Shown here: one piece after another, positions 1,332 to 40,704 of the stretch
How positions within the stretch are numbered: position 1 is the first letter of the stretch
How the letters are laid out: each line of letters begins with the position of its first letter
NCBI RefSeq assembly: GCF_001953885.1
Contig: NZ_MQUS01000001.1
Coordinates: 558,001 to 622,000 of the forward strand
DNA length: 64,000 bases
Source of the DNA: Streptomyces sp. IMTB 2501
Lineage (GTDB): Bacteria > Actinomycetota > Actinomycetes > Streptomycetales > Streptomycetaceae
Direction of reading: 5' to 3'
Program-made: the position numbers and the translations under genes
The notes under the pieces: generated by a model
Database searches by the model: none
Seen by the model: only the letters and a program-made list of their open reading frames with translations
What the model was told of the DNA's origin: nothing

Positions 1332-2606
1332 ATGGGCGAACCTGGGACTGTGGAGGCAAAGTCCCTGGCATCACGCACCGTGGGCGAGCTGACCACGGCG
1401 CAGTTGCGTGGCGTCGCCGCGTGGGCGGCAGCATGTCCGGCCTTGACGATGACCTGCCGCCGGTGGCTGGCGGAGGGTGACGGCCGGCGGCTGACGGACT
1501 TGCCGCATATGACGGTGGAGCAGGGGTTGGAGGCCGCCGGCCGCCAACTCCGCGGCCGCCCCGCCTATTACACCGTCAGCAGTGGGACGACTGGGCCGCC
1601 GAGGGTGAAAGGCCTGGCGTCCAGGGAAGACGTGTCCAGTGCTCACGTCAGCCAATGGCGGCCGATGCGCCCGGGTGACGTGCTCCTCAATCTCTTTTCC
1701 ACGGGCGGGGCCTACCTGACCGCCGAGCGCACAGCCGCACTGTGCGGAGCTCACACAGTGCCAGGGGTGACCGAGGCAGGCGATCTGATCGGACTCGCAC
1801 CGAGTCTGGCGCGCATCGGTGTGAACGCCGTGGCCGGCTATCCTGAGATGCTCGCCTTTTTCGCCCGCACCGTGCTCGGGAATCGGCTCGGGCTGCGGCC
1901 CCGCCTCGTCATCTGGACGGGCGGAAACCTGACGTCGGGATGCGCCGCGCTCCTGCGTGAACTCAATCCGGAGCTCGAATTCTGGAGTGTCTACTCGTCC
2001 TCCGAAGCCGGCGGAGTCGCGTTCGGTTTCCCGGACTGCGCCCTCGGTGTACATCATCTGTGGCCTGGCCAAATCCTGGAACTGACCGCGGAACGGTGTT
2101 GCCTGACGCGCGCCGTCGGTCTTCCCGCGGGGCGCCCTCTGCTCCGTCTGCCGCTGGGCGACAGAATCGAGGGACCGGTGACATGTCCTTGCGCGCGGGA
2201 CTTGCCGGCGCTGCGGGTCCAGGGGCGGCTGAACGACATGGTGAGGCTGTACGACGCCGTGTTCTCCGTGGACAGCCTGCGCCTGGCCGCCACCGACTCC
2301 CCTGAAGTGATCGGCGCGCAGGTCATTCTCGTACCCGAAGACCTCGACGACCCGTACGGCCCGCAGCGGAGCCTGGGCGTGCGCGTGGACCCGCGCACGG
2401 CAGTGGCCGGCCGGGGCGTCGCTGACCGGACGCGCGCCCGGATGACAACTCAGCACGCTGCTCTGCGTGCCATCTCGGAGCGGAGCCCGGAAGCATTCTG
2501 GATCGAGTGCGGCCCGTTGGAGCAGTTGTCCGACTGCCTCAAGACCAAGCCCGCCGTCGTGTCACGCGGGCACGCTCCCGACCTCTGGTCAGGCAAAGGC
2601 CACTGA
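1332..2606 (+). CDS. PaaK-like adenylate-forming acyl-CoA/acyl-carrier ligase
   Basis: This 424-residue protein has the phosphate-binding signature SSGTTGPPRVK at about residues 83-93, the segment VYSSSEAGG near residue 221 in the place of the (Y/F)GxTE motif, and GRLNDMVRLYDAVFSVDSL near residue 297, corresponding to the hinge GR(S/N)D region. The length matches phenylacetate-CoA ligase-type enzymes (~430). Such enzymes adenylate a carboxylic acid with ATP and pass it to CoA or a carrier thiol. It is followed after 2 bases by a GNAT-like gene and then by E1 alpha/beta genes, so it probably heads a small biosynthetic operon. The ATG lacks a strong ribosome site, so the start is uncertain. The substrate cannot be read from the sequence. 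Confidence 0.8.
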   Translation: MGEPGTVEAKSLASRTVGELTTAQLRGVAAWAAACPALTMTCRRWLAEGDGRRLTDLPHMTVEQGLEAAGRQLRGRPAYYTVSSGTTGPPRVKGLASREDVSSAHVSQWRPMRPGDVLLNLFSTGGAYLTAERTAALCGAHTVPGVTEAGDLIGLAPSLARIGVNAVAGYPEMLAFFARTVLGNRLGLRPRLVIWTGGNLTSGCAALLRELNPELEFWSVYSSSEAGGVAFGFPDCALGVHHLWPGQILELTAERCCLTRAVGLPAGRPLLRLPLGDRIEGPVTCPCARDLPALRVQGRLNDMVRLYDAVFSVDSLRLAATDSPEVIGAQVILVPEDLDDPYGPQRSLGVRVDPRTAVAGRGVADRTRARMTTQHAALRAISERSPEAFWIECGPLEQLSDCLKTKPAVVSRGHAPDLWSGKGH

Positions 2607-2608
2607 GC

Positions 2609-3391
2609 ATGACCGGCGAGCACATGCAACTCCTTTCCGCGGCGCTCCAGGGCTTCACCGTCCTGGCTCAGAACGTCACGGATGTCGCCGACGGCGCTTT
2701 CCGTGCCTTCGTCGTGAACGGGTACCCGGCGCCGAGCTACTCCCCGGTCGTCTGCCTGGAACGGCAGTTGCCGCAGGCCGACACGCTGGAGGCGGTCAGT
2801 GCCTACTGGCGCCAACAGTGGGGACCGGCCTACCCGCCGGGCTTTGTCTTCTGCCCGTGCGACAGAACCCCGCCCCGGCACGCGGCGGACGGCTGGCGAC
2901 GCGTGGAGCCTCTCCACATCATCGTGGAGTCCTCACGTCCGAGGCGGCCACAGGTGCGCCCCCCTTTCACGCTGTCCACCGTCCGGCTCGGCGACTCGGT
3001 CACAGACGTCCAGTTCCAGGCAGTGGTCGCCGCGTGCTTCCCCGAAACGCGGCAGAACCCGGAGCAGATCCTCGCACCGTTTCACCGGGCCCGGGCTCTC
3101 ACCGAGCTGATCATCATCAGCCATGGAGACCCGCCGAGACCCGTTGCCGCAAGTGCTGTCACGGCGAGAGGCGACACGGCGTTCCAAACACGCGGCGCCG
3201 TCGTGAAACCGTACCGGGGTCTCGGGTTTTCACGGGTCATGCAGGAAGCGGCACTTGGGCGTTGCCACGCCCTGGGCGCTACGACCGCCGTCACCGCCAC
3301 GCGCAACCCGCGCGTTCTCGGCGTCAACCGCCCGTCCCTGGAGCTGTGGATCTACCAGTACCAGCCAAACGATGCGAACGACGACTTCTGA
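2609..3391 (+). CDS. GNAT-like acyltransferase
   Basis: 260 residues from the ATG at 2609, two bases after the ligase stop. The last third contains a GNAT-type acyl-CoA binding segment (VVKPYRGLGFSRVMQEA, about residues 199-215) followed by a beta strand and the C-terminal helix pattern. The first ~130 residues have no recognisable motif and contain a CPCD pair of cysteines. The stop overlaps the start of the E1 alpha gene in a TGATG junction, which implies translational coupling. It probably transfers an acyl group made by the ligase or by the E1 pair onto an unknown acceptor; this is inference from context only. Confidence 0.6.
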   Translation: MTGEHMQLLSAALQGFTVLAQNVTDVADGAFRAFVVNGYPAPSYSPVVCLERQLPQADTLEAVSAYWRQQWGPAYPPGFVFCPCDRTPPRHAADGWRRVEPLHIIVESSRPRRPQVRPPFTLSTVRLGDSVTDVQFQAVVAACFPETRQNPEQILAPFHRARALTELIIISHGDPPRPVAASAVTARGDTAFQTRGAVVKPYRGLGFSRVMQEAALGRCHALGATTAVTATRNPRVLGVNRPSLELWIYQYQPNDANDDF

Positions 3392-4483
3392 TGCGACCAA
3401 CGCCCTGTCTGTTCGGCGGCGCTTTGCCCGAAAAGGTGCACGGCGTCCTCGACGACGCGCCACCGCCCGGCGCGTCCACACCTCTCGGGCCGCTGCCGCA
3501 CGGGCCGGAACTGGTCGCCATGCAACGGGCTCTCCGGCTGGGCCGGGCCATCGAGGATGCCGCGACCGCCATGGCCAAGCAAGGGCGCCTCGTCGCCTAT
3601 CCCGCTGCTCAGGGGCAGGAGGCCGTCCAGGTGGGCGCCGCATGGGCGCTGGATCCCACTGACTGGCTCTTCCCGACCTACCGTGACTCCATCGCGGTGA
3701 TCACCCGTGGGGTGGACCCCGCCGAGGTTCTGGCCGGTTTTCTTGGCCGCCGCCACCAGGGCTTCGACTCACGCGCACCGTGTCGCGCCACTGTGCACAC
3801 CTCTGGCCACACACGCCCCGCACGCTGTGGGCCTCGCCTACGCGGCGCGCTACCGCGGCGAGGACACCGTGGCTCTGGTCCTCCTCGGCGACGGAGCCAC
3901 CAGCGAGGGCGACTTCCACGCGGCCCTGAACTTCGCAGCCGTCCTGGCCACTCCCGTCGTCTTCGTCGTCCAGAACAACGGATACGCCATCAGCGTCCCC
4001 TCGCGGCTCCAGAGCGCCGCCGTCAGTTTCGCCCACAAAGGGATCGGGTACGGCATCCCAGCCGAAATCGTCGACAGAAACGACGTTCTGGCCGTCATGC
4101 TCACTGTGCGCACCGCCGTTGAGCGAGCCCGAGCCGGAGCGGGACCGGCGCTGATCGAGGCGGTCACCTACCGCGTCGGCCCGCATTCCAGTGCCGACAA
4201 CCCTGCGCGCTACCGCGACGCGAGCGAGACCGCCGCTTGGCGGCAGCGCGACCCGCTGGAACGGTTCACCGCATACCTGACCCACCATGATCTGCTCACC
4301 GCCGAGGTCACCGACGGCCTACGGGCAGCGGCGCACGCCACAACCGCCCGGCTGCGCGCCCGTGTCGACGCACCCTACGAACCCGACCTGCGTGACCTGA
4401 CCGCGCACGTCTACACCCGGCCACCGCCGCACCTCACAGCTCAAGCCACCGAGTTCGCCGGAAGGAAGAAGCCCCGTGCATGA
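3391..4483 (+). pseudogene. 2-oxoacid dehydrogenase E1 alpha subunit, interrupted by a frameshift
   Basis: Read in two frames this is a complete E1 alpha of the pyruvate/branched-chain 2-oxoacid dehydrogenase type. The first frame (3391 to ~3770) gives MRPTPCLFGG through QGQEAVQVGAAWALDP and LFPTYRDSIAV. The next frame (~3775 to 4483) gives HRVAPLCTPLATHAPHAVGL, the thiamine diphosphate motif GDGATSEGDFHAAL...QNN (bases 3887-3979) and a normal C-terminus. The switch needs one base skipped between about 3765 and 3780. Without it translation runs into a nonsense arginine-rich tail to 4122. The TGATG start couples it to the GNAT gene and its end overlaps the E1 beta start by 8 bases. It may be a genuine pseudogene, a sequencing error or, less likely, recoding. 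Confidence 0.85.
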
Positions 4484-5414
4484 CTTCGCGGGTGCACTCA
4501 ACCAGGCTCTGTGCGATGCCCTGAGCGCCGACGACAGCGTCGTCGTCTTCCGGGTCACTGATGGCTTGGCCGCGGCCTTCGGCAGCCACCGGTGCTTCGA
4601 CACCCCCCTGTGCGAGTCCGGCATCGTGGGCAGCGCGGTCGGCATGGCGATGAACGGCCTGCGTCCCGTGATCGAGATCCAGTTCGACGCGTTCGCCTAC
4701 TCGGCCTTCGAGCAGATCACCAGCCACGTCGCCAAGATGCGCAACCGAACCGCCGGCCGTCTCGCCTTGCCCATGGTCATCCGGATCCCCTACGGCGGTG
4801 GTATCGGCGCGGTCGAGCACCACAGTGATTCCTCCGAGGCCTACTACACCCACACCCCGGGCCTCCTGGTCGTGACGCCATCCACAGTGGCCGACGCCTA
4901 CTCACTGCTCCGAGAGGCGATCGACCATCCCGATCCGGTCATCTTCCTCGAACCCAAACGCCTCTACTGGCGCAAGGAGGACGTGGCCCTCCCACAACGT
5001 ACAGGCGGCTTCGGACAGGCTGCCGTCCGCCGGTCCGGCACCACGGCCACCCTGGTCGCCTACGGTCCGACCGTGGACGTCGCTCTGGAAGCCGCCGAAG
5101 AAGGCCAGGCATACGGCTGGGAACTGGAGGTCGTCGACCTGCGAACGCTCGTCCCGCTCGACGACAAGACGTTGGTCAGAAGCATTCGTCGTACCGGGCG
5201 AGCCGTCGTCCTCCACGAGGCGGCCGGCTTCGGCGGATACGGCGCCGAAATCGCCGCCCGGCTGACCGAGTCCTGCTTCTACCACCTCGAAGCCCCCATC
5301 CGCCGAGTCACCGGCCTCGACGCCCCCTACCCTGCTCCCTCACTCGAACAGCACTACCTGCCGCGCACCCCCCGTGTCCTCGCCGCCGTCGAGGACGTCC
5401 TGTCGTACGCATGA
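4476..5414 (+). CDS. 2-oxoacid dehydrogenase E1 beta subunit lacking the GEDVG loop
   Basis: 312 residues from a GTG start preceded by GGAAGGAAG at about 8 bases. It has the family landmarks FRVTDGL, DTPLCESGIVGSAVGMAM (E47 is the conserved cofactor-contacting glutamate), VIEIQFDAFAYSAFEQI, RIPYGGGIGAVEHHSDS, PSTVADAYSLL, LRTLVPLD and HEAAGFGGYGAEI. The normal N-terminal segment GE(D/E)VG..GGVF between the first beta strand and FRVTDGL is absent: residues VVVF (22-25) run straight into RVTDGL. That is an in-frame loss of about 11 residues, including a glutamate that normally touches thiamine diphosphate. E1 alpha and beta together decarboxylate a 2-oxoacid; no E2 lipoyl protein or E3 is nearby. 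Confidence 0.85.
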   Translation: MHDFAGALNQALCDALSADDSVVVFRVTDGLAAAFGSHRCFDTPLCESGIVGSAVGMAMNGLRPVIEIQFDAFAYSAFEQITSHVAKMRNRTAGRLALPMVIRIPYGGGIGAVEHHSDSSEAYYTHTPGLLVVTPSTVADAYSLLREAIDHPDPVIFLEPKRLYWRKEDVALPQRTGGFGQAAVRRSGTTATLVAYGPTVDVALEAAEEGQAYGWELEVVDLRTLVPLDDKTLVRSIRRTGRAVVLHEAAGFGGYGAEIAARLTESCFYHLEAPIRRVTGLDAPYPAPSLEQHYLPRTPRVLAAVEDVLSYA

Positions 5415-6003: not shown

Positions 6004-7407
6004 TCAGCCCGCGGGCAGGCTCACAACGAACCGCGCCCCAGGCCCGTACCCAGGGTCATAGGACACCTCACCCCCTGCTGACCTGGCCAGGCGCCGGGCG
6101 AGCGGCAGGCCGAGGCCCGCGCCGCCGTGTCCGTCGCCGGGGTCGGCCCGCTTGCCGGGCTGGAAGAGCAGCTCCGTGAAGGCGGCGGGCACGCCGGGGC
6201 CGTCGTCCGTGACCTCGACCCGTATACCGCCGTCCGCCCGGGACGCGCCGAGTGTGACCGTCGTACGCGCATAGCGCACCGCGTTGGCCAGCAACGGACT
6301 GACGATCCGTTCCAGGAGCGCCGGCTGCACCCCGGCCGTGAGCGGCCCCGGCCCGTCCGGTACGACGACCCGCACCGTGCCGGAAGCGTCCGCGTGCGTG
6401 GCCATGCGGTGCAGCACCGTCGGCACATCGGCGGTGCCGGGGGCCGTCGGCGCACCCGCGCGGGCCTCGTCCAGCAGGGTGTCGCAGATGGTGCGCATCG
6501 ACTGCGCGGCCTCGGCCAGGACCTCGTGGGAGGCCCGGGTCTCGGCGTCGGAGCGCGGGCGGGAGCGCCACCAGTCCAGCTCGGCGACGATCCGGCTGAG
6601 CGGGGTGCGCAGTTCGTGCGACAGCTCGCCGGTCAGCTGCCGCTCATGCCGCAGCACCGCCCGGATCCGGTCCAGCAGGGAGTCCAACGAGACGCCGAGC
6701 GCGGCCAGTTCGGCCGGTCGGCCGCCACCCGCGAAGCGCTCCTCGGACCCCACGGCACTCCACTGGGTCGCCTGGTCCGTCATCGTGCGCACCGGGCGCA
6801 GCGCCCGCCCCACCACCAGCCGGGTCAGCGCATAGGTGCACACGAGCATCACCGCGTCCAGCGCGCACGAGCCCAGCAGCAGCGTTCGGGCGGAACTGCG
6901 GTACGGCGCGAGGTCCAGCGCCGTGACCACGGTGGTCCGCGCCGCCGCACCGGGCACCGGCGCCGCGCACAGCCGTACGGTGTCGGGGCCGTGCACCGTG
7001 GCACAGCCGCGCCGGCCGCGGGCGGCCAGCGCATCGGCGGCGCGGGTGAGCGCGCCGGCGCCGGCCGGGGGCCGCTCCAGCAGCCTGCCGTCCGCGTAGA
7101 TCCACGCGTTGGTGTCCAGCAGCCGGTCGCCGGAGGTCTCCAGCACCCGCACCCTGCCGTGACGGGTGTCGACGGTCGTGGCGACGGCCGCCGCGCGGGT
7201 GCGCAGTTCGTCGTCCGCCTCCTGCCGGAGACGGTGGCCGACCACGCTGTTGAAGACGACGGTGAGGATCAGCATCAGCAGCGCGGCGGTGACCAGGGCG
7301 GCCAGCGAGAGCCGGCCGCGCAGGGTCCGCGGCGCCGGCCACGACGTGAGGCGGGCGAGGGACGACGGCGGACGGGCCGGGAACGATCCGCTGTGCGGGA
7401 GCCTCAT
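6004..7407 (-). CDS. Two-component sensor histidine kinase
   Basis: 467 residues. A membrane segment at about 35-57 (LAALVTAALLMLILTVV) and a second near 175-195 bracket a ~115-residue extracytoplasmic sensor region. A HAMP-like stretch (RALRPVRTMT) follows, then the HisKA motif LSHELRTPLSRI with the phospho-accepting histidine, an N box (LLANAVRYA), G1 (VTDDGPGVP) and G2 (GGAGLGLPLARRL). The ATG overlaps the stop of the response-regulator gene by 4 bases, so the pair is co-transcribed and coupled. It is the last gene of an operon with DedA and two PAP2 phosphatases, suggesting it senses envelope or lipid-carrier stress. The signal is unknown. Confidence 0.9.
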   Translation of the reverse strand: MRLPHSGSFPARPPSSLARLTSWPAPRTLRGRLSLAALVTAALLMLILTVVFNSVVGHRLRQEADDELRTRAAAVATTVDTRHGRVRVLETSGDRLLDTNAWIYADGRLLERPPAGAGALTRAADALAARGRRGCATVHGPDTVRLCAAPVPGAAARTTVVTALDLAPYRSSARTLLLGSCALDAVMLVCTYALTRLVVGRALRPVRTMTDQATQWSAVGSEERFAGGGRPAELAALGVSLDSLLDRIRAVLRHERQLTGELSHELRTPLSRIVAELDWWRSRPRSDAETRASHEVLAEAAQSMRTICDTLLDEARAGAPTAPGTADVPTVLHRMATHADASGTVRVVVPDGPGPLTAGVQPALLERIVSPLLANAVRYARTTVTLGASRADGGIRVEVTDDGPGVPAAFTELLFQPGKRADPGDGHGGAGLGLPLARRLARSAGGEVSYDPGYGPGARFVVSLPAG

Positions 7408-8069
7408 GTCAGGCGGTGGCCGATCCCGCGTGCGGTGGCGATGGTCCGGTCGCTGCCCGCCGCGCGCAGCTTGCGGCGCAGCCGGGTCAGATACTGGTCC
7501 AGCGTGTTGTCGCTGACCTGTGCTCCCTCCGGCCAGCCCGCGCGGAGCAGCTCACGGCGGCGCACCAGCTCCCCGCCGGCCGCGCTGAGCGCCGCCAGCA
7601 GCCGGAACTCCGTCGGGGTCAGTTCCACGCGCCTGCCCTCCACGGTGGCGCTGTGCCGGACGGCGTCCAGCACCAGTCCGCCCGCCCCGGCGGTCCCGGC
7701 CGGGGGCACCGCCCGGCGCAGCGCCGCCCGCAGCCGGGCCGCCAGCTCGGAGAGATGGAACGGCTTGGGCAGATAGTCGTCGCCCCCGGCCGAGAAGCCC
7801 GACAGCCGGTCCGTGAGCCCGTGCCGCGCGGTCAGGAAGACGACCGGGGCGAGGTAGCCGCCCGCGCGCATCGCCTGGCACACATCGCGGCCGTCGGCGT
7901 CGGGCAACCCGACGTCCAGCACGACGGCCGACACGTCCGGTGTCGCCAGCCGCAGGGCCGTGGCGCCGTCGCCGGCACAGACCGTGTCGAAGTCCTCGTC
8001 ATGCAGACCGCGGCGCAGCACGTCACGCAGGGCGTGATCGTCCTCGACGATGAGGATCCTGGGACGCAT
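7404..8069 (-). CDS. OmpR/PhoB-family response regulator
   Basis: 221 residues from the ATG at 8069 (MRPRILIVEDD), preceded by GGAGAAAG. I chose this start over in-frame upstream codons because the upstream residues are low-complexity and the receiver domain begins here. Receiver landmarks are EDD near residues 9-11, the phosphorylated Asp in VVLDVGLPDADG, the T of VFLTAR, and K in YLPKPF. The C-terminal winged helix contains ELTPTEFRLLAAL and a VSDNTLDQYLTRLRRKL recognition region. Phosphorylated by the adjacent kinase, it should bind DNA, probably its own operon promoter. Its 5' end lies inside the 3' end of the preceding PAP2 gene (47-base overlap). Confidence 0.92.
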   Translation of the reverse strand: MRPRILIVEDDHALRDVLRRGLHDEDFDTVCAGDGATALRLATPDVSAVVLDVGLPDADGRDVCQAMRAGGYLAPVVFLTARHGLTDRLSGFSAGGDDYLPKPFHLSELAARLRAALRRAVPPAGTAGAGGLVLDAVRHSATVEGRRVELTPTEFRLLAALSAAGGELVRRRELLRAGWPEGAQVSDNTLDQYLTRLRRKLRAAGSDRTIATARGIGHRLT

Positions 8070-34936: not shown

Positions 34937-35036
34937 GCTTCTCTGCTGATCCCTTATGTTCGAGGTGTTCCCTCCGAGCGGGAACTGTCCGACCGTGTCC
35001 TCGGGCGAGGGTCGGGCAGCGGCGGAGCGAGGCGGC

Positions 35037-36095
35037 GTGGGCGGACAGTCGGGGACGACCGTCGCGGTGACCGGCGGCAGCGGCTTCGTCGGCAGCCACC
35101 TGGTACGGCGGCTGCTGGAACGCGGCTACCGGGTCCATGCCACCGTACGCCGCCTCGCCGACGCGGCGAAGGCCCGCCCGCTGTGGGAGCTCCAGGAGGC
35201 CTTTCCCGGGCAACTACGGTTGTTCGCCGCGGACTTGCTGAAGGAGGGCTCGTACGACGAGGCGTTCCGCGGCTGCCCGGTGGTCTTCCATGTGGCCTCG
35301 CCGTTTCTCATGCCGGAGCGGATCCGGGACGGCCGACGGGACGTCGTGGACCCGGCGCTGCTGGGCACCCGCAATGTGCTGGCGGCGATCGAGCGGACCC
35401 CGGAGGTCCGGATCCTGGTGTTCACCTCGACCGTGGGCGCGATCTTCGGTGACTACGCCGACGTGCTCGTGATGGACGGCCAGGTGCTCTCCGAGCGGTA
35501 CTTCAACACCACGAGTACGGTCGGGAACAACCCCTACCACTACGCCAAGACACTCGCCGAACGTGCCGCCTGGGCGGCCGCGGCGGCGCAGGACCGCTGG
35601 CGCATGGCGTCGGTCAACCCCGGGCTGATCCTCGGCCCCTCGTTCACGCCCGCGTCCGACTCCGGCAGCCTCTTCCTGCTCGACGAGCTGTTCAAGGGCT
35701 ACTTCTGCTACGGCGCCCCCGACTTCAGCTTCACCACGGCGGACGTCCGCGACGTGGCCGACGCCCACATCGCCGCCGCCGAGAACCCGGCGGCGCGGGG
35801 GCGGTACATCGTGGCCGCCGAGACCATGACGTCGTTCCACGAGATGGCCCGCATCATCCTCGCCCGCCACCCCCGCGACCTCCGGCTCCCGCGCACCCGG
35901 CTCCCGCACTGGCCGGTACGCATCCTGGGTCCCTCCTTCGGCCTCACCCAGGACTACATCCGGGGGCACCTCGGTATCCGCTTCCGCGTCGACAACAGCC
36001 GCAGCGTCCACGAACTCGGCCTCACCTACCGGCCGTTGGCGGAGACCCTGCTCGACCACTACGAGAGCCGGCGGGCACACCGGCGCCGTCACTGA
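35037..36095 (+). CDS. NAD(P)-dependent epimerase/dihydroflavonol-4-reductase-like SDR
   Basis: 352 residues from GTG 35037, chosen because GAGCGAGG precedes it and the Rossmann motif VAVTGGSGFVGSHLV then begins near residue 8. It has an extended-SDR layout, with DLLKEGSYDEAFRGC, VFHVASPF, and the catalytic YHYAK with the upstream serine in FTSTVG. It reduces or epimerises a small carbonyl or sugar-like substrate with NAD(P)H. The last codon and stop (CAC TGA) coincide with the left end of an IS-like element at 36089, so the native C-terminus may be replaced. An alternative in-frame start is ATG 34956. Confidence 0.78.
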   Translation: MGGQSGTTVAVTGGSGFVGSHLVRRLLERGYRVHATVRRLADAAKARPLWELQEAFPGQLRLFAADLLKEGSYDEAFRGCPVVFHVASPFLMPERIRDGRRDVVDPALLGTRNVLAAIERTPEVRILVFTSTVGAIFGDYADVLVMDGQVLSERYFNTTSTVGNNPYHYAKTLAERAAWAAAAAQDRWRMASVNPGLILGPSFTPASDSGSLFLLDELFKGYFCYGAPDFSFTTADVRDVADAHIAAAENPAARGRYIVAAETMTSFHEMARIILARHPRDLRLPRTRLPHWPVRILGPSFGLTQDYIRGHLGIRFRVDNSRSVHELGLTYRPLAETLLDHYESRRAHRRRH

Positions 36096-36105
36096 GCGTT
36101 TTCAG
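36089..36105 (+). repeat. Left terminal inverted repeat of the IS5-like element
   Basis: TCACTGAGCGTTTTCAG matches the reverse complement of 39207-39223 at 14 of 17 positions. It overlaps the stop codon of the preceding SDR gene. Confidence 0.6.
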
Positions 36106-36149
36106 CATGGCCACTGATCGGGTGAGCTGGTGGTGTGCGCAACGCACGA

Positions 36150-36205
36150 GGCTCCCGTGCCGTTGGGGGAGGTGTGGGAAGTCTCAACCCACAGGCACGG
36201 GAGCC
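36150..36205 (+). promoter_or_regulatory. Hairpin that can mask the transposase ribosome site
   Basis: GGCTCCCGTGCC (36150-36161) pairs perfectly with GGCACGGGAGCC (36194-36205). The right arm contains GGGAG, the only Shine-Dalgarno-like sequence before the TTG start at 36209. In an IS this would keep read-through transcripts from being translated. Confidence 0.6.
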
Positions 36206-36208
36206 GCG

Positions 36209-37001
36209 TTGGTTCCGTCTTCTGCCGCACTGGACCTCCCGCATGCCCTTGTTGAGTGGGTCACGATGCTGATCGTCACCCGCGAGGGTGACCGGCGATG
36301 CAAGCTCCGCCCCTCCCAGCGGGCCCTGGTCGGCCTTGGTGTACCTGCGTCGGCACGACACGCTCGCGCAGATCGCCGCCGCCTCCGGTATCTCCCTCGG
36401 TACCGCACATGCCTACGCGGCCGCGGTGGTCGGCCTGCTGGCCGACCGTGCTCCGTGTCCGCTGCGCGCGCTGCGCGAAACCGACCCCGACTACGTGCTG
36501 CTGGACGGCACCCTCGCGGAGTGCGACCGGGTCGGCGACGGACGGGCGGACTACTCCCACTGTGAGGATGGTGGCTGTGTCGTTCCGGCCACGGCTTGAC
36601 TCAAACATCGTCGGCACGGAGTGAACGTGCAGGTGGTGACCGACCCCGCTGGACGGCTGCTGTGGATCTCGCCCGTCCTACCGGGCCGTGCACACGACCT
36701 GACGGCCGCCCGCGCCCACCGGATCATCCTGATCTGCGAACGGCAGGGCGTCCCGGTGCTAGTCGATTGCGCCTGCATGGGGGCCGGCTCGTGGATGACT
36801 ACACCCCCCAGACGCCCGCGGGGCCGCGAGCTCACACCGACCCGGCAAACCGTCAACCGCGCACTGTCCGCCGCACGGGCACCGGTCGAGCGCGGCGTCG
36901 CCCGCTTGAAGACATGGCGAATCTTCCGCCGCTCCCGCTGCAGTCCGAATCGCATGTCGTCAATGGCCATGGCCGTCCTGACCTTGGAGAGGCAACGCTG
37001 A
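36209..37001 (+). pseudogene. IS5-like (DDE_Tnp_4 type) transposase, degenerate
   Basis: Successive frames give LVPSSAALDLPHALVEWVTM and KLRPSQRALV, then VYLRRHDTLAQIAA with an HTH (GISLGTAHAYAAAVVGLLAD), LLDGTLAECDRVGDGRADYS (first catalytic Asp), NVQVVTDPAGRLLWISPVLP, GRAHDLTAARAHRI and RAPVERGVARLKTWRIFRRS. Two lesions are visible: an extra base at ~36331-36333 shifts the frame, and a 42-base insertion at 36561-36602 adds an in-frame TGA between DYSH and KHRRHG. The residue after VPVL is also unusual (VDCACMGAG where family members have DRAYMGAG). The normal right end does not follow the stop; the sequence runs directly into the Abi-like gene. Confidence 0.85.
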
Positions 37002-37983
37002 CGTTGCTGTTTGGTATGCCTCAGCCATGGCGTGGAAGGAACGCTTCGGTGCCAGGCTGCCGTCGGGCATGACCTTGCACACTCCGTAGGAGGCCATGTC
37101 GAGGTCGAAGCGCGGATCCTCGTGGTGCGGATATGTGTAGCCGGCGAAGGTGAACCAGAAGGCGGTGTCCACGCCTTCCTCGTTGAAGACGTCCAGTTGC
37201 TGGCGCAGGTAGCGGGCCTGTTCGTCTTCATCGCGGATGTAGTCGCCGTCGAGGCGGGGCGGGTCCGCATCGTGGTCGACGACGGCCCACCAGCCGATGC
37301 CTCCGCGGGCGGCTGCGCCTCGGTAGGTGCAGCTGCCGAATTCGGTTCGCCGCGAGCGGCTTGCCGTGCCGGAGATACTCGCGCAGGCCCTGACGGAAGG
37401 CGTCACTGGCATCGCCGTAGGCGTCGGCACTGACGATGTCGAAGGGCGCCCAGTCGATCTGCTCCCACGTTCCGGAGGCGTAGGTGATCTTGCCGCGAAA
37501 CCGTGAGCGGACCGTTGCCGCGATGTCGGACAGCAAGGAGTTCAGCCGGGCAGGAACCTCGGCGAGGGCGGCCAGTGTTGTCTCGTCGGGAGCGCCGCTG
37601 ATCAGGGCTTCGATTCTGGCGATGCTGTCGTCTCCGGGGAGGATACCGGCAGCGAACAGGCTCAACTCGCAGCCGGCGACGAAGACGTTCGCTCCCACCT
37701 CTTCAGCGCGATCGGCGCAGTCGGCGAAGTAGGGCAGCAGCTCCTCGGCGGACAGTTCGCAAGGGAACGGGGAGAACCAGACCTCCAGCCCGGCGTCGGC
37801 GGCGTGCCGGGCCGCGAGGGCCAGTCGCCCTGGGTCGCCACCGGTGATCCGTACGGCGTCGCAGTGCAGGTTGTCCGCGATCATGCGGATCTCGTGTTGT
37901 ACCGCGTCGGCGTCGAAGACGGGCCGCGAACTCTTTCCGCCCGGAGTGAAGCCGGTGTCGTAGGTGATGCCTCTGGCTCGCAT
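36960..37983 (-). pseudogene. Gene of the actinobacterial 'abortive phage infection protein' family, frameshifted
   Basis: ATG 37983 (MRARGITYDTGFTPGGKSSR, with CAGGAG ahead) begins a TIM-barrel, glycosidase-like protein: IRMIADNLHCDAVRITGGDP, GLEVWFSPFPCELSAEELLP, FDIVSADAYGD and LRHGKPLA. One extra base near 37346-37350 shifts the frame. The family continues as TEFGSCTYRGAAARGGIGWW, LDGDYIRDEDEQARYLRQQL, VDTAFWFTFAGYTYPHHEDP and SFHAMAEAYQ. The last ~15 codons are the reverse strand of the transposase end, so the natural C-terminus has been replaced at about 37003-37010. The family name is from annotation I remember; an antiviral role is not shown for it. Confidence 0.72.
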
Positions 37984-38367
37984 GGATGCTCCTGACAATC
38001 GATCGACAACTGTTGCTGCGTCTCAAGGGCGCCGACGCGGGTCGGTTCGGCGGGCGGATCGCATGGACGGCTCAGGGCGCGTCAGTGGGCAGCTCGACGG
38101 CAGTCTCGGCCACGCTGTCACCTCGCTCCTCTCCCTGGGAGATCGCCGCACACCCGTGCTCGGCCATCGGAGCCGAACGTTAGGTACAAGTCGAAAAGCC
38201 GGTCAACGGCGATCTCCTCTGGACCGTACTGTTTGTGCTGGTCAGCCATGCAGCCGGCGATTGCAATGACAGTGAGGGTCAATGCATGGCGAGCGAGGGG
38301 ATGTTGCAACGATCGGCGACCAGTGCACACTGTGGCCGAGACGCCCCAATCAGAGGAACCGAACCCG
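37984..38367. other. Divergent promoter region between the Abi-like gene and the regulator
   Basis: About 380 bases. Near the Abi side is GACAATCGATCGACAACTGTTG. Near the regulator side, GATTGCAA (38262) and TTGCAACGATCG (38305) form an imperfect dyad about 45 bases apart. The base composition is less GC-rich than the flanking genes, as expected of promoter DNA. No RNA gene is recognised. Confidence 0.45.
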
Positions 38368-39117
38368 ATGCCAGGACGCAGGCTCACCAGAGCCGACCGG
38401 CAGCAGATTGCCGCCGGGTTGGCACGGCGCCTGAATTACGCCGACATCGCCAGGAGCCTGGACCGTCCCACGTCGACGGTGAGCCGCGAGGTCGCGCGCA
38501 ACGGCGGACCCGCCCGCTACCACGCGGAACTGGCACAGCTCGCGACCATCCACCGAGCCCGGCGCAGGCCGCAGCCGCCCGCGTCGGTGCAGCGGACCAT
38601 CGAGCAACTCGGCCCCGCCCCCGACGCAACGGCTGCGTTCGTCACCGACCTCACCGCGGCCTTCGTCGAAACCGGCCTCCCGCGCACCGCCGCTCGCGTG
38701 ATGGCCTGCCTGTTCGTCTCCGAGACCGGCAGCCGTACCGCCATCGATATGGCGCAGCACCTGCACGTCAGTGCCGCGACCGTCTCGCAGGCGGTCCACC
38801 TGCTGGAACGGCAGGATCTAATCCGTCGCGGCCGAGACGAACGGAGCCGCCGCCACCGGTATTTCCTCGACGACAACGCGGGCTTGCGGACCGTCGTGGC
38901 CAGCGCCGCCGCCAACCAGCGGCTCGCCGCCACCGCGCTGCGCGGTGCCGAAGTCCTCGGAGCCCGGACCGCTGCCGGAGCCCGGCTGGCCCTGGCAGGC
39001 CGATTTCTCGAACGCCTCGGCGACGACCTCATCCGCTCCGCTGAAAAGCACTGGCGAGACATGGTTGGTGACGGGGTCGAGGAACACACGCCGACCATCC
39101 ACACATCGACGGAGTAG
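38368..39117 (+). CDS. Regulator with IS30-like HTH and MarR/GbsR-type winged helix
   Basis: 249 residues from ATG 38368. The N-terminus RRLTRADRQQIAAGLARRLN plus YADIARSLDRPTSTVSREVA resembles the helix-turn-helix of IS30 transposases. From ~95 a MarR/GbsR-like winged helix follows: GLPRTAARVMACLFVSETGS, MAQHLHVSAATVSQAVHLLE and LIRRGRDERSRRHRYFL. The C-terminal ~75 residues look helical and may bind a ligand. It is divergent from the Abi-like gene, so it likely represses it and itself. Confidence 0.82.
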   Translation: MPGRRLTRADRQQIAAGLARRLNYADIARSLDRPTSTVSREVARNGGPARYHAELAQLATIHRARRRPQPPASVQRTIEQLGPAPDATAAFVTDLTAAFVETGLPRTAARVMACLFVSETGSRTAIDMAQHLHVSAATVSQAVHLLERQDLIRRGRDERSRRHRYFLDDNAGLRTVVASAAANQRLAATALRGAEVLGARTAAGARLALAGRFLERLGDDLIRSAEKHWRDMVGDGVEEHTPTIHTSTE

Positions 39118-39149
39118 TGGGCGACCTCACTTGACCAGGCGATGACCGG

Positions 39150-39223
39150 GCAGCCGAGATGCCCAGGGCTTATGACCGCAGCCATCCTCACCCTGGAGGG
39201 TCAACGCTGAAAAGGCTTACTGA
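39150..39223 (+). mobile_element. Right-end fragment of an IS5-like element
   Basis: 39172-39210 encodes MTAAILTLEGQR followed by a stop, the conserved last residues of the same transposase type as at 36209-37001 (there MAVLTLERQR). The bases after it, CTGAAAAGGCTTACTGA (39207-39223), are the right inverted repeat. Nothing else of the element is present here. Confidence 0.68.
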
Positions 39224-39252
39224 CCCCGGTCCCGTCCCGGTGCGCCGGCCGG

Positions 39253-40704
39253 TCAGGCGGGCCGCACGATCCGGTGGATCGCCGACTCCCCGGCGCCGTA
39301 GATCGACTCCTCGCGGATCGACGACCCCGGACCCGGCGCGTGCACCATCATGCCGCCGCCGACGTGGAGCCCCACATGCCGGTCGTCGTCGAAGAAGAGG
39401 ACGAGATCACCGGGTTCGATGCCGGCCAGGGTGACCGGGGCACCGGCGAGCGCCTGCTGGTGCGCGGCCCGTGGCAGGGTGACCCCCGCGGCCTTCCAGG
39501 CGGCCTGCGTCAGGCTGGAGCAGTCGTACGAGTCCGGCCCGGTCGCACCCCACACGCATGGCTTGCCGATCTGCGCCCGGGCGAACGCGACGGCCTTGGC
39601 GACACGAACAGCCTCCGGCGAGTCGGTGACCGGGGCCAGGGGGCCGGTGTCGGTCACAGAGGCCGTAGGGGCTGCGGTGGTGGGGACCGAGGCGCTGGTG
39701 ACAGATGCCATGGGGGCGGACCAGGCGTCCGCGGTCACCGTCCCGGCGGGTGCCTCCCACTGTGGCTGCTCCCACTGACCGGTCCCGAAGTCCGAGGGGA
39801 ACCGCGTGGTCGTGGGCGGTATCGCTGTGACCGGCGCAAGCGCCACGTCCGTGACCAGCGCGGGTGCTGAGGCCGTGTCGGGTGCCAGTGGCACGGCTGT
39901 GTCGGGCGCGGGTGGTACAGCGGTAGCAGGTGCGGGCTGAACAGCCGCGGCATACGTGACGAGCTGGGCGGCGTACCGGGAGATCACGTCGCTGGCGGCG
40001 GCGAGCTTGCGCTGGTTGTTCGCCTTGGACACGGCGGGGGAGGGGCGGCTCGGGGCGGTGGTGCCGGGAAGGGCCCTGGCTTCCTGGACCGGAGCGCCCG
40101 GGGCGGCCGACAACGCGGGCAGCGGGAGGACGGCCGTCTCGACGGCGACGAGGCGGTTCTCGCCCAACTCCGCTCCACCGCTGGGAAGTTCGGGACGGTG
40201 AGAGGCCGGTAGCGCCACACGCCCGCTCTCCCGCGCGGCCAGAGCCAGACTCGCCGGGTCCGTCGCCCGGCCGGCCGTCAGCTCGGCCACCACGCGGTCG
40301 ACGGCGCGCTCCAGGGCCTCGGGCCGCCGGCCCGAAGGGCCCGGCCCCAGGGCGTCGCGCGTGCCGTCCGGAAGGCCTCCGCCCATCCGTCTCCGGGAAC
40401 GCCCCGGTGCCGCCGGGCGGTCGGGGAGCCGGTCGGCGGGCAGGACGGCGGGGACGGTCGGGCCGAGCTTGGCGCGCGCCATGTCGAACCACTGCCGGGT
40501 GACCTCGTCCAGGGCGGGATCCGACCGCCGGCCCGAGCGATCGGCCGGCGCGACTTCGCGCGAGCGCGACACCGACGCCATGGCCCGGGTCGCGTTGTAG
40601 TTCCCGGTCGCGTTCTCGGCCTGGTCGTAGAGGGAGTTGATCCGTTGCCGAACCTCGTCCCGCTGAGCGACCTCGTCGCGGCTCTCCGGCGCCATGGAAG
40701 ACAT
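39253..40704 (-). CDS. NlpC/P60 (C40) cell-wall peptidase with long variable linker
   Basis: 483 residues from ATG with AAGGAAGGAG ahead. The C-terminal ~120 residues are a complete NlpC/P60 domain: AQIGKPCVWGATGPDSYDCS (catalytic Cys in DCSSLTQ), RHVGLHVGGGMMVHAP (catalytic His). The N-terminal ~100 residues contain RINSLYDQAENATGNYNATR, a coiled-coil-like start seen in secreted endopeptidases, then ~250 residues of P/A/T/V-rich linker with TAVPPAPDTAVPLAPDTA repeats. No classical signal peptide is visible, so the export route is unclear. It should cleave peptidoglycan stem peptides. Confidence 0.88.
   Translation of the reverse strand: MSSMAPESRDEVAQRDEVRQRINSLYDQAENATGNYNATRAMASVSRSREVAPADRSGRRSDPALDEVTRQWFDMARAKLGPTVPAVLPADRLPDRPAAPGRSRRRMGGGLPDGTRDALGPGPSGRRPEALERAVDRVVAELTAGRATDPASLALAARESGRVALPASHRPELPSGGAELGENRLVAVETAVLPLPALSAAPGAPVQEARALPGTTAPSRPSPAVSKANNQRKLAAASDVISRYAAQLVTYAAAVQPAPATAVPPAPDTAVPLAPDTASAPALVTDVALAPVTAIPPTTTRFPSDFGTGQWEQPQWEAPAGTVTADAWSAPMASVTSASVPTTAAPTASVTDTGPLAPVTDSPEAVRVAKAVAFARAQIGKPCVWGATGPDSYDCSSLTQAAWKAAGVTLPRAAHQQALAGAPVTLAGIEPGDLVLFFDDDRHVGLHVGGGMMVHAPGPGSSIREESIYGAGESAIHRIVRPA

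Follow-up and report, generated by a model that had tools for sequence, protein, structure and literature searches.

A decayed, IS5-bounded and probably composite insertion in Streptomyces sp. IMTB 2501 carrying a broken GH113-like enzyme gene and an intact regulator gene

Why should pieces of insertion sequence (IS) enclose a gene of the 'abortive infection' name, now broken, and a regulator gene that is still whole? The question is posed by an island of some 3.1 kb in the 10-Mb draft genome (94 contigs) of Streptomyces sp. IMTB 2501; positions below are those of the window, that is, the whole stretch of 64,000 nucleotides that was analysed (G000:C1:558001-622000). The island is real and each of the elements named in the original prediction is present: IS5-family ends lie outside, with the regulator gene intact and the enzyme gene broken inside. 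That prediction saw a composite element, or cargo captured by an IS, that had later decayed, and on this point it has held: the island is IS-bounded and probably composite, as indicated by the same triplet, ACT, on both sides, by island-free sites in relatives, and by an IS tail on the enzyme gene in several species. It further proposed a mobile defence cassette, a proposal that we abandon below. Our reading, to which we give a probability of roughly 0.55, is that of a decayed IS5-bounded insertion, likely composite, carrying a broken AcvX-family GH113-like enzyme gene and an intact HTH_38-MarR regulator gene – a mobile and regulated deglycosidase pair.

The limits of the element come first. 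With the duplicated target bases excluded, the element proper spans 36094-39218. Directly outside it, on the evidence of the ANT found next to the ends of the same IS group elsewhere, lie the presumed 3-bp target duplications, ACT at 36091..36093 and ACT at 39219..39221. The left terminal inverted repeat, GAGCGTTTTCAGC (36094..36106, forward strand), placed by alignment of IS copies, agrees with the complement of 39206-39218 at 11 of 13 positions; the letters of repeat and triplets were checked. The match of 14 in 17 reported earlier is correct for the 17-mers, but their first bases belong to the target duplication.

Between these limits, the left IS5-family element (36094..37009, forward strand) is nearly full length, broken, and 72-78% identical to copies in genomes of the same genus. 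Open reading frames (ORFs) and profile matches show its transposase gene (36288..37001, forward strand) to comprise an HTH_Tnp_4 piece (36288-36599) and a DDE_Tnp_4 piece (36621-37001) with stops between the two; 36288 is a provisional start, and homology to other IS copies begins to the left of it. The Pfam scores, 70 bits for DDE_Tnp_4 and 30.6 bits for HTH_Tnp_4, both exceed their cut-offs and, together with the same-group copies in other genomes, bear out the predicted IS5-like nature of the ends; the NCBIfam model IS5_4 gives the fragment 50 bits, below its cut-off of 140. On the right about 50 bp are left of a second copy (39170..39218, forward strand, left edge approximate), namely the right inverted repeat and, as had been noticed, the last 13 transposase codons: these stand at 39172-39210 and over 39 bp are 77% identical to 36963-37001. 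Both copies have the same orientation. A nearly whole IS on the left, a remnant on the right and ACT outside both make the layout of a composite transposon.

Of the claim that the left transposase is nearly full but has lost its own right end, the first part stands; as to the second, the left element may keep a degenerate right inverted repeat, fused to the 3′ end of the 'Abi' gene. The repeat is weak (the comparison omits one misaligned row, L044), and we rejected a wholly retained right end for that reason.

To interpret the triplets we turned to the same IS group in genomes of the genus. Seventeen regions were collected, of which one ends at a contig end (L121) and one is rearranged (L122); the remaining 15 full copies (L106-L120) were aligned. 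Their ends start with GAGC and continue into TTTTCAG or a variant of it, for example TTCTTCG; ANT stands outside the left end in 15 of 15 and outside the right end in 14 of 15, and the two flanking triplets are identical in 11 of 15 copies, differing in L106, L108, L117 and L118. A presumed target duplication, which the original prediction advised looking for, is present in the expected form, ACT/ACT at the island where the group duplicates ANT beside its GAGC ends – the behaviour of the IS5 subgroup that we take to be the one called ISL2-like. In the same 15 copies a CANTG target joined to an end starting with GAG makes TGA at the junction; insertions near the ends of genes can therefore supply or keep a stop codon. 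This is seen at the island's left neighbour, an NAD-dependent epimerase/dehydratase gene (34956..36095, forward strand) whose stop codon lies at the insertion point.

Island-free sites, likewise named there as a check, were sought in 61 genomes with window positions 35500-39800, and two genomes have them. In G033 both flanks – the epimerase gene and, on the right, an NlpC/P60 protein gene (39253..40704, reverse strand; ORF and profile match) – are present at 87-88% identity, 34 bp apart, with no island between. In G016 the NlpC flank is 87% identical and lies 11-14 bp from some 155 bp of the epimerase end (76%), again with no island; this genome gives no epimerase protein match at 1e-60, and so the left gene is only a partial match (six of 38 genomes match at that threshold, a sample that includes G016 and has G033 outside it). 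Among the matches listed, the flanks were not seen side by side in the remaining genomes of the 61. A regulator at least 75% identical occurs, among the matches listed, in five of 392 same-genus genomes (G000, the present one, included; two partial), and the window flanks have no match in the other four. The IS fragments might have been coincidental had the pair stood at this site in relatives without any IS. The result is mixed: the two relatives have neither IS nor pair here, and it is elsewhere, in 17 of 17 loci outside Streptomyces, that the pair occurs without this IS.

Those loci belong to a set of 52 found in genome contigs, in 24 of which (L046 and L049 partial) the regulator adjoins the enzyme: 17 in Rugosimonospora, Asanoa, Actinoallomurus, Streptoalloteichus, Amycolatopsis, Saccharothrix, Nocardia, Actinoplanes and kin, and seven in Streptomyces and Actinacidiphila. 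The island's transposase was not found in the DNA around any of the 17. The seven, together with the window, the 2.8-Mb replicon of Streptomyces sp. BHT-5-2 (L055 = L102) and G161 (L099), give ten Streptomyces-clade copies, and in eight of these ten the window's IS-tail bases are joined to the enzyme end at the same point, mostly at unrelated sites. The match extends to 36882 (L004), 36941 (L005), 36971 (L006 and L099), 36974 (L044), 36989 (L102) and 36996 (L048), the last two amounting to only 21 and 14 bp. The fusion of the 'Abi' 3′ end to the transposase end, described from the window, is accordingly found in several species; at the junction the stop codon is lost and about 16 codons are gained from the IS end. 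One IS insertion at the enzyme stop codon in a common ancestor, followed by separate decay, would be the simplest account. Apart from a neighbour common to L004 and L048, and transposase fragments in several, the flanks of these copies have no DNA in common. Both genes are whole, as single open frames, in 14 of the 17 loci outside Streptomyces and in five of the ten Streptomyces-clade copies, L005 and L006 among them. No other gene family recurs in more than four of the 22 loci examined, antisense frames over the regulator aside.

A central issue is what the enzyme does. In the window the gene (36960..37983, reverse strand) is broken near 37,340: residues 1 to ~213 are in one frame and the remainder in another, each 80-87% identical to two intact relatives, the break falls just before the second presumed catalytic glutamate, and the final ~16 codons come from the IS end. 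The pieces have no Pfam match, and the family was assigned by way of the intact relatives, P0001 of Streptomyces sp. cf386 and P0002 of Rugosimonospora africana. The one close solved relative, AcvX of Actinomadura viridis (PDB 7y4h), matches these over its full length (325 and 331 bits), and a structure model of P0002 has the same fold at 50-54% identity; the window copy, unlike the solved AcvX, is broken. The PDB title of 7y4h gives lobophorin deglycosylation – lobophorins are spirotetronates – and the literature searched gave nothing relevant on AcvX, 7y4h or this deglycosylation. GH113 beta-mannanases (AaManA 4cd6/3civ, 5ylh, BaMan113A) are the second-best structural matches at 18-24% identity; Pfam GH113 scores 24.6 bits for P0001 and 24.3 for P0002 against a cut-off of 27. 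Two presumed catalytic residues, E106 and E212, are invariant in 31 relatives chosen from 120 listed and align to positions 151 and 231 of 4cd6, the first stretch being weak alone; the assignment uses what we take to be the catalytic numbering of AaManA. By these comparisons of sequence and modelled fold the family is GH113-like and AcvX-related, and the enzyme likely removed sugars from an antibiotic-like natural product. AcvX as an orthologue is unsupported, being about equally distant from several clades. A second AcvX-like gene, 38% identical, lies about 40 kb past the window (G000:C1:662173-662799; L002).

The partner gene fares better. The divergent regulator with two helix-turn-helix (HTH) domains is present as predicted, intact and 249 aa long (38368..39117, forward strand; ORF and profile matches), with HTH_38 at 52.7 bits and MarR_2 at 39.8 (cut-off 27 for each). 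Four TTGCAA palindromes occur in the whole 64-kb window, two of them between enzyme and regulator: ATTGCAAT (38260..38267), predicted operator 2, and, 43 bp away, GTTGCAAC (38303..38310), predicted operator 1, the letters of both having been checked. Palindromes of this kind recur in the corresponding intergenic regions, 22 in all (the window and 21 loci, excluding L044, which has about 1 kb extra there, and the partial L046 and L049). At least one palindrome is found in 22 of 22 and two in 18, with a single one in L004, L006, L009 and L050, whereas shuffled regions contain two in 0.008 on average; the spacing is 41-43 bp, or 32 bp, about one helical turn less. A predicted promoter-like TTGACC-18-TAACGT (38177..38206, reverse strand) points toward the enzyme gene, and a similar TTGAC...TAA[CT]G match is present in 15 of the 22 regions.

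These sites are not peculiar to the pair. Of the 25 best paralogues of the regulator (46-52% identical; L074-L098), 24 have a TTGCAA site in the 200 bp before the start of the gene and 18 have two, 43-45 bp apart, compared with 0.9 of 25 in shuffles and 7% of random 200-bp windows of the same loci, although the non-independence of related sequences means that all the TTGCAA counts overstate the evidence somewhat. The paralogues resemble our regulator in their twin sites and differ in that no AcvX-like gene lies within ~1.5 kb on either side of the 25; the neighbours of the nine examined are of other kinds. TTGCAA is thus the predicted operator of the HTH_38-MarR regulator family and not of this pair alone. 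Nothing relevant on TTGCAA with MarR in Streptomyces was found in the literature searched. By eye, the divergent ORFs beside the nine paralogues include a DUF4097-type protein, a serine beta-lactamase-like protein and a membrane protein.

Has the pair moved between lineages? Divergence (dN, dS) of enzyme and regulator was compared with that of rpoB, its reading frame chosen by a well-known rpoB motif, in six chosen genomes, Asanoa being placed by its family; pairs with L050, whose regulator has one internal stop, were excluded. Between Micromonosporales, Streptosporangiales and Pseudonocardiales both genes are less diverged than rpoB by both measures in five of five pairs: for Actinoallomurus-Amycolatopsis dN and dS are 0.134 and 0.423 in rpoB, 0.049 and 0.216 in the enzyme, 0.102 and 0.218 in the regulator. 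For Rugosimonospora-Asanoa dN is higher in both genes. A pair less diverged than rpoB suggests horizontal movement between these three orders outside Streptomyces. Against two Streptomyces, enzyme dN is below that of rpoB in eight of eight pairs and regulator dS in seven of eight.

Taken together, these data lead us to propose the following history. An IS would have landed at the enzyme stop codon in a Streptomyces ancestor; a second copy would later have settled beyond the regulator, the outer ends would have moved the block to its present site, and the right IS copy, the transposase and the enzyme would then have decayed. In working pairs both genes may be kept silent by the regulator, which would occupy its two sites, some four helical turns from each other, until displaced by a ligand, presumably the drug itself or its sugar; the enzyme, by the usual two-glutamate mechanism of its fold, would then cleave the sugar from a glycosylated natural product, probably an antibiotic.

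Several observations weigh against this interpretation. Given ANT, the agreement of ACT with ACT has a 1-in-4 chance. At the right end of the left IS the resemblance is weak, with 6-9 matches in the 16 bases after the stop, and a 9/16 match arises in ~5% of random 16-mers. The transposase tails differ by 23%, so that the flanking copies are not recent duplicates. Two Streptomyces-clade copies, L009 and L018, are without the IS tail, and L018 is the closest relative by DNA (92-96%). The enzyme genes of five relatives outside Streptomyces end in CCAATGA (two), CCGATGA (one) and CCGGTGA (two), so that the IS target form CAATG stands at the stop codon in only two of five. Two other clades are at least as close to AcvX as this one is (239, 248 and 258 bits, N-terminal parts); its substrate may for that reason not carry over. 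The window's enzyme copy, its gene being broken, probably does nothing. Finally, transfer involving Streptomyces appears less clear: in the comparison with the two Streptomyces, enzyme dS is below that of rpoB in only four of eight pairs and regulator dN is above it in eight of eight.

The most serious rival to the composite account holds that a plain IS was resident between the epimerase and NlpC genes, and that the pair, already bearing an IS tail, entered by recombination between IS tails with no transposition of a unit. The same ACT triplets and ends are expected on this model, and in the other copies of the pair an IS tail is confined to the enzyme side, with no second copy of this IS. 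The two models part company little on the remaining evidence: the common orientation and common outer triplet fit a composite moved as a unit, and a resident IS would look alike; a 23% difference between tails fits two unlike IS copies on either; and an island-free site fits movement of cargo and ends together as well as a resident IS that gained its cargo later. Known IS5-family composite transposons have two same-oriented IS ends of one group flanking cargo within matching target triplets, as here; unlike them, the island has a right IS of only ~50 bp and tails 77% alike, and unit movement in this case is a proposal. Recombination would, however, require one homologous and one illegitimate exchange, and the pair in G161 is enclosed by direct remnants (207 bp, 88%) of another transposase, a finding that speaks generally for movement on IS. 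We give the resident IS somewhat worse than even odds and, without proof, prefer the block to have moved as a composite unit.

A different objection concerns function. The enzyme could serve ordinary carbohydrate use, trimming a glycan or oligosaccharide while the regulator senses sugar, antibiotics being uninvolved. GH113 mannanases are, after all, the second-best structural matches, the precomputed Pfam GH113 label is carried by nine of the 120 listed relatives, and AcvX is not especially close. We think this rather unlikely: no transporter or sugar-use gene recurs beside the pair in the 22 loci, and an isolated, regulated and horizontally moving pair would better fit detoxification. It is improbable, too, that the frame breaks are assembly errors in an active transposon with a working enzyme; the draft is in 94 contigs, but both the transposase and the enzyme are broken, little is left of the right IS, and five of the ten Streptomyces-clade copies (window included) have a broken gene of the pair.

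This leaves the anti-phage abortive-infection cassette of the original prediction. In its favour are a mobile two-gene unit with a regulator, the UniProt records of relatives, on which 'abortive infection' is no more than a name, and weak PADLOC matches of the regulator, made by its DNA-binding part, with CasR the best (E 4.8e-05). Searches of Pfam, NCBIfam and PADLOC gave no Abi or defence model for the enzyme, which has no relative among 50,697 phage records and has the fold and presumed catalytic residues of a glycosidase; on these searches, fold and records a defence function was rejected. A defence island around natural pairs was also rejected. Of 87 ORFs picked as neighbours, 70 were scanned, namely those of 11 loci outside Streptomyces with one antisense ORF set aside; among these 70 proteins the PADLOC protein profiles gave six matches at 1e-10 (mad1, mad2 twice, mad3, subtilase and TAP-like), scattered and with no recurrent system; the mad1 match in L008 (2451-3188) covers 46 residues only, no other mad gene is present among the nine L008 proteins scanned, and of the 25 Pfam families listed, out of 55, none is found in more than two members. 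The cassette is, in short, highly improbable as a means of defence.

What was a defence candidate thus becomes an enzyme that likely modifies antibiotics and passes between soil actinomycetes together with its own switch, and the database name 'abortive infection' is put in question as misleading. A broader picture, which we offer tentatively, is of a portable, self-regulated cassette for antibiotic deglycosylation that spreads from one order of actinomycetes to another, in some cases on IS composites, and has gone unnoticed as an 'abortive infection protein'; its regulator would belong to a large family acting through twin TTGCAA operators spaced by four helical turns. Composites of this structure are known; as far as the literature search shows, the new points are the pairing, the spread and the predicted operator, which is directly testable for a regulator family that has matches (E up to 1e-40) in 264 of the 392 genomes sampled from the genus.

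Some further arrangements of the pair may be recorded. In Rugosimonospora (L003) a transposase of another kind (DDE_3, Pfam; 2522-3799) ends just past the regulator. In Actinacidiphila glaucinigra (L044, ~3600-5000) the regulator and the enzyme, the latter frame-broken, are separated by about 1 kb that weakly matches a transposase. The neighbour common to L004 (3119-3680) and L048 (6713-6150), 560 bp long, flanks the pair on one side in L004 and on the other in L048, as though an inversion of the pair or two insertions had taken place. The direct 207-bp remnants around the pair in G161, oriented 4929-5134 and 7328-7533, are of a second transposase, IS5-like by eye, and make another composite-like arrangement.

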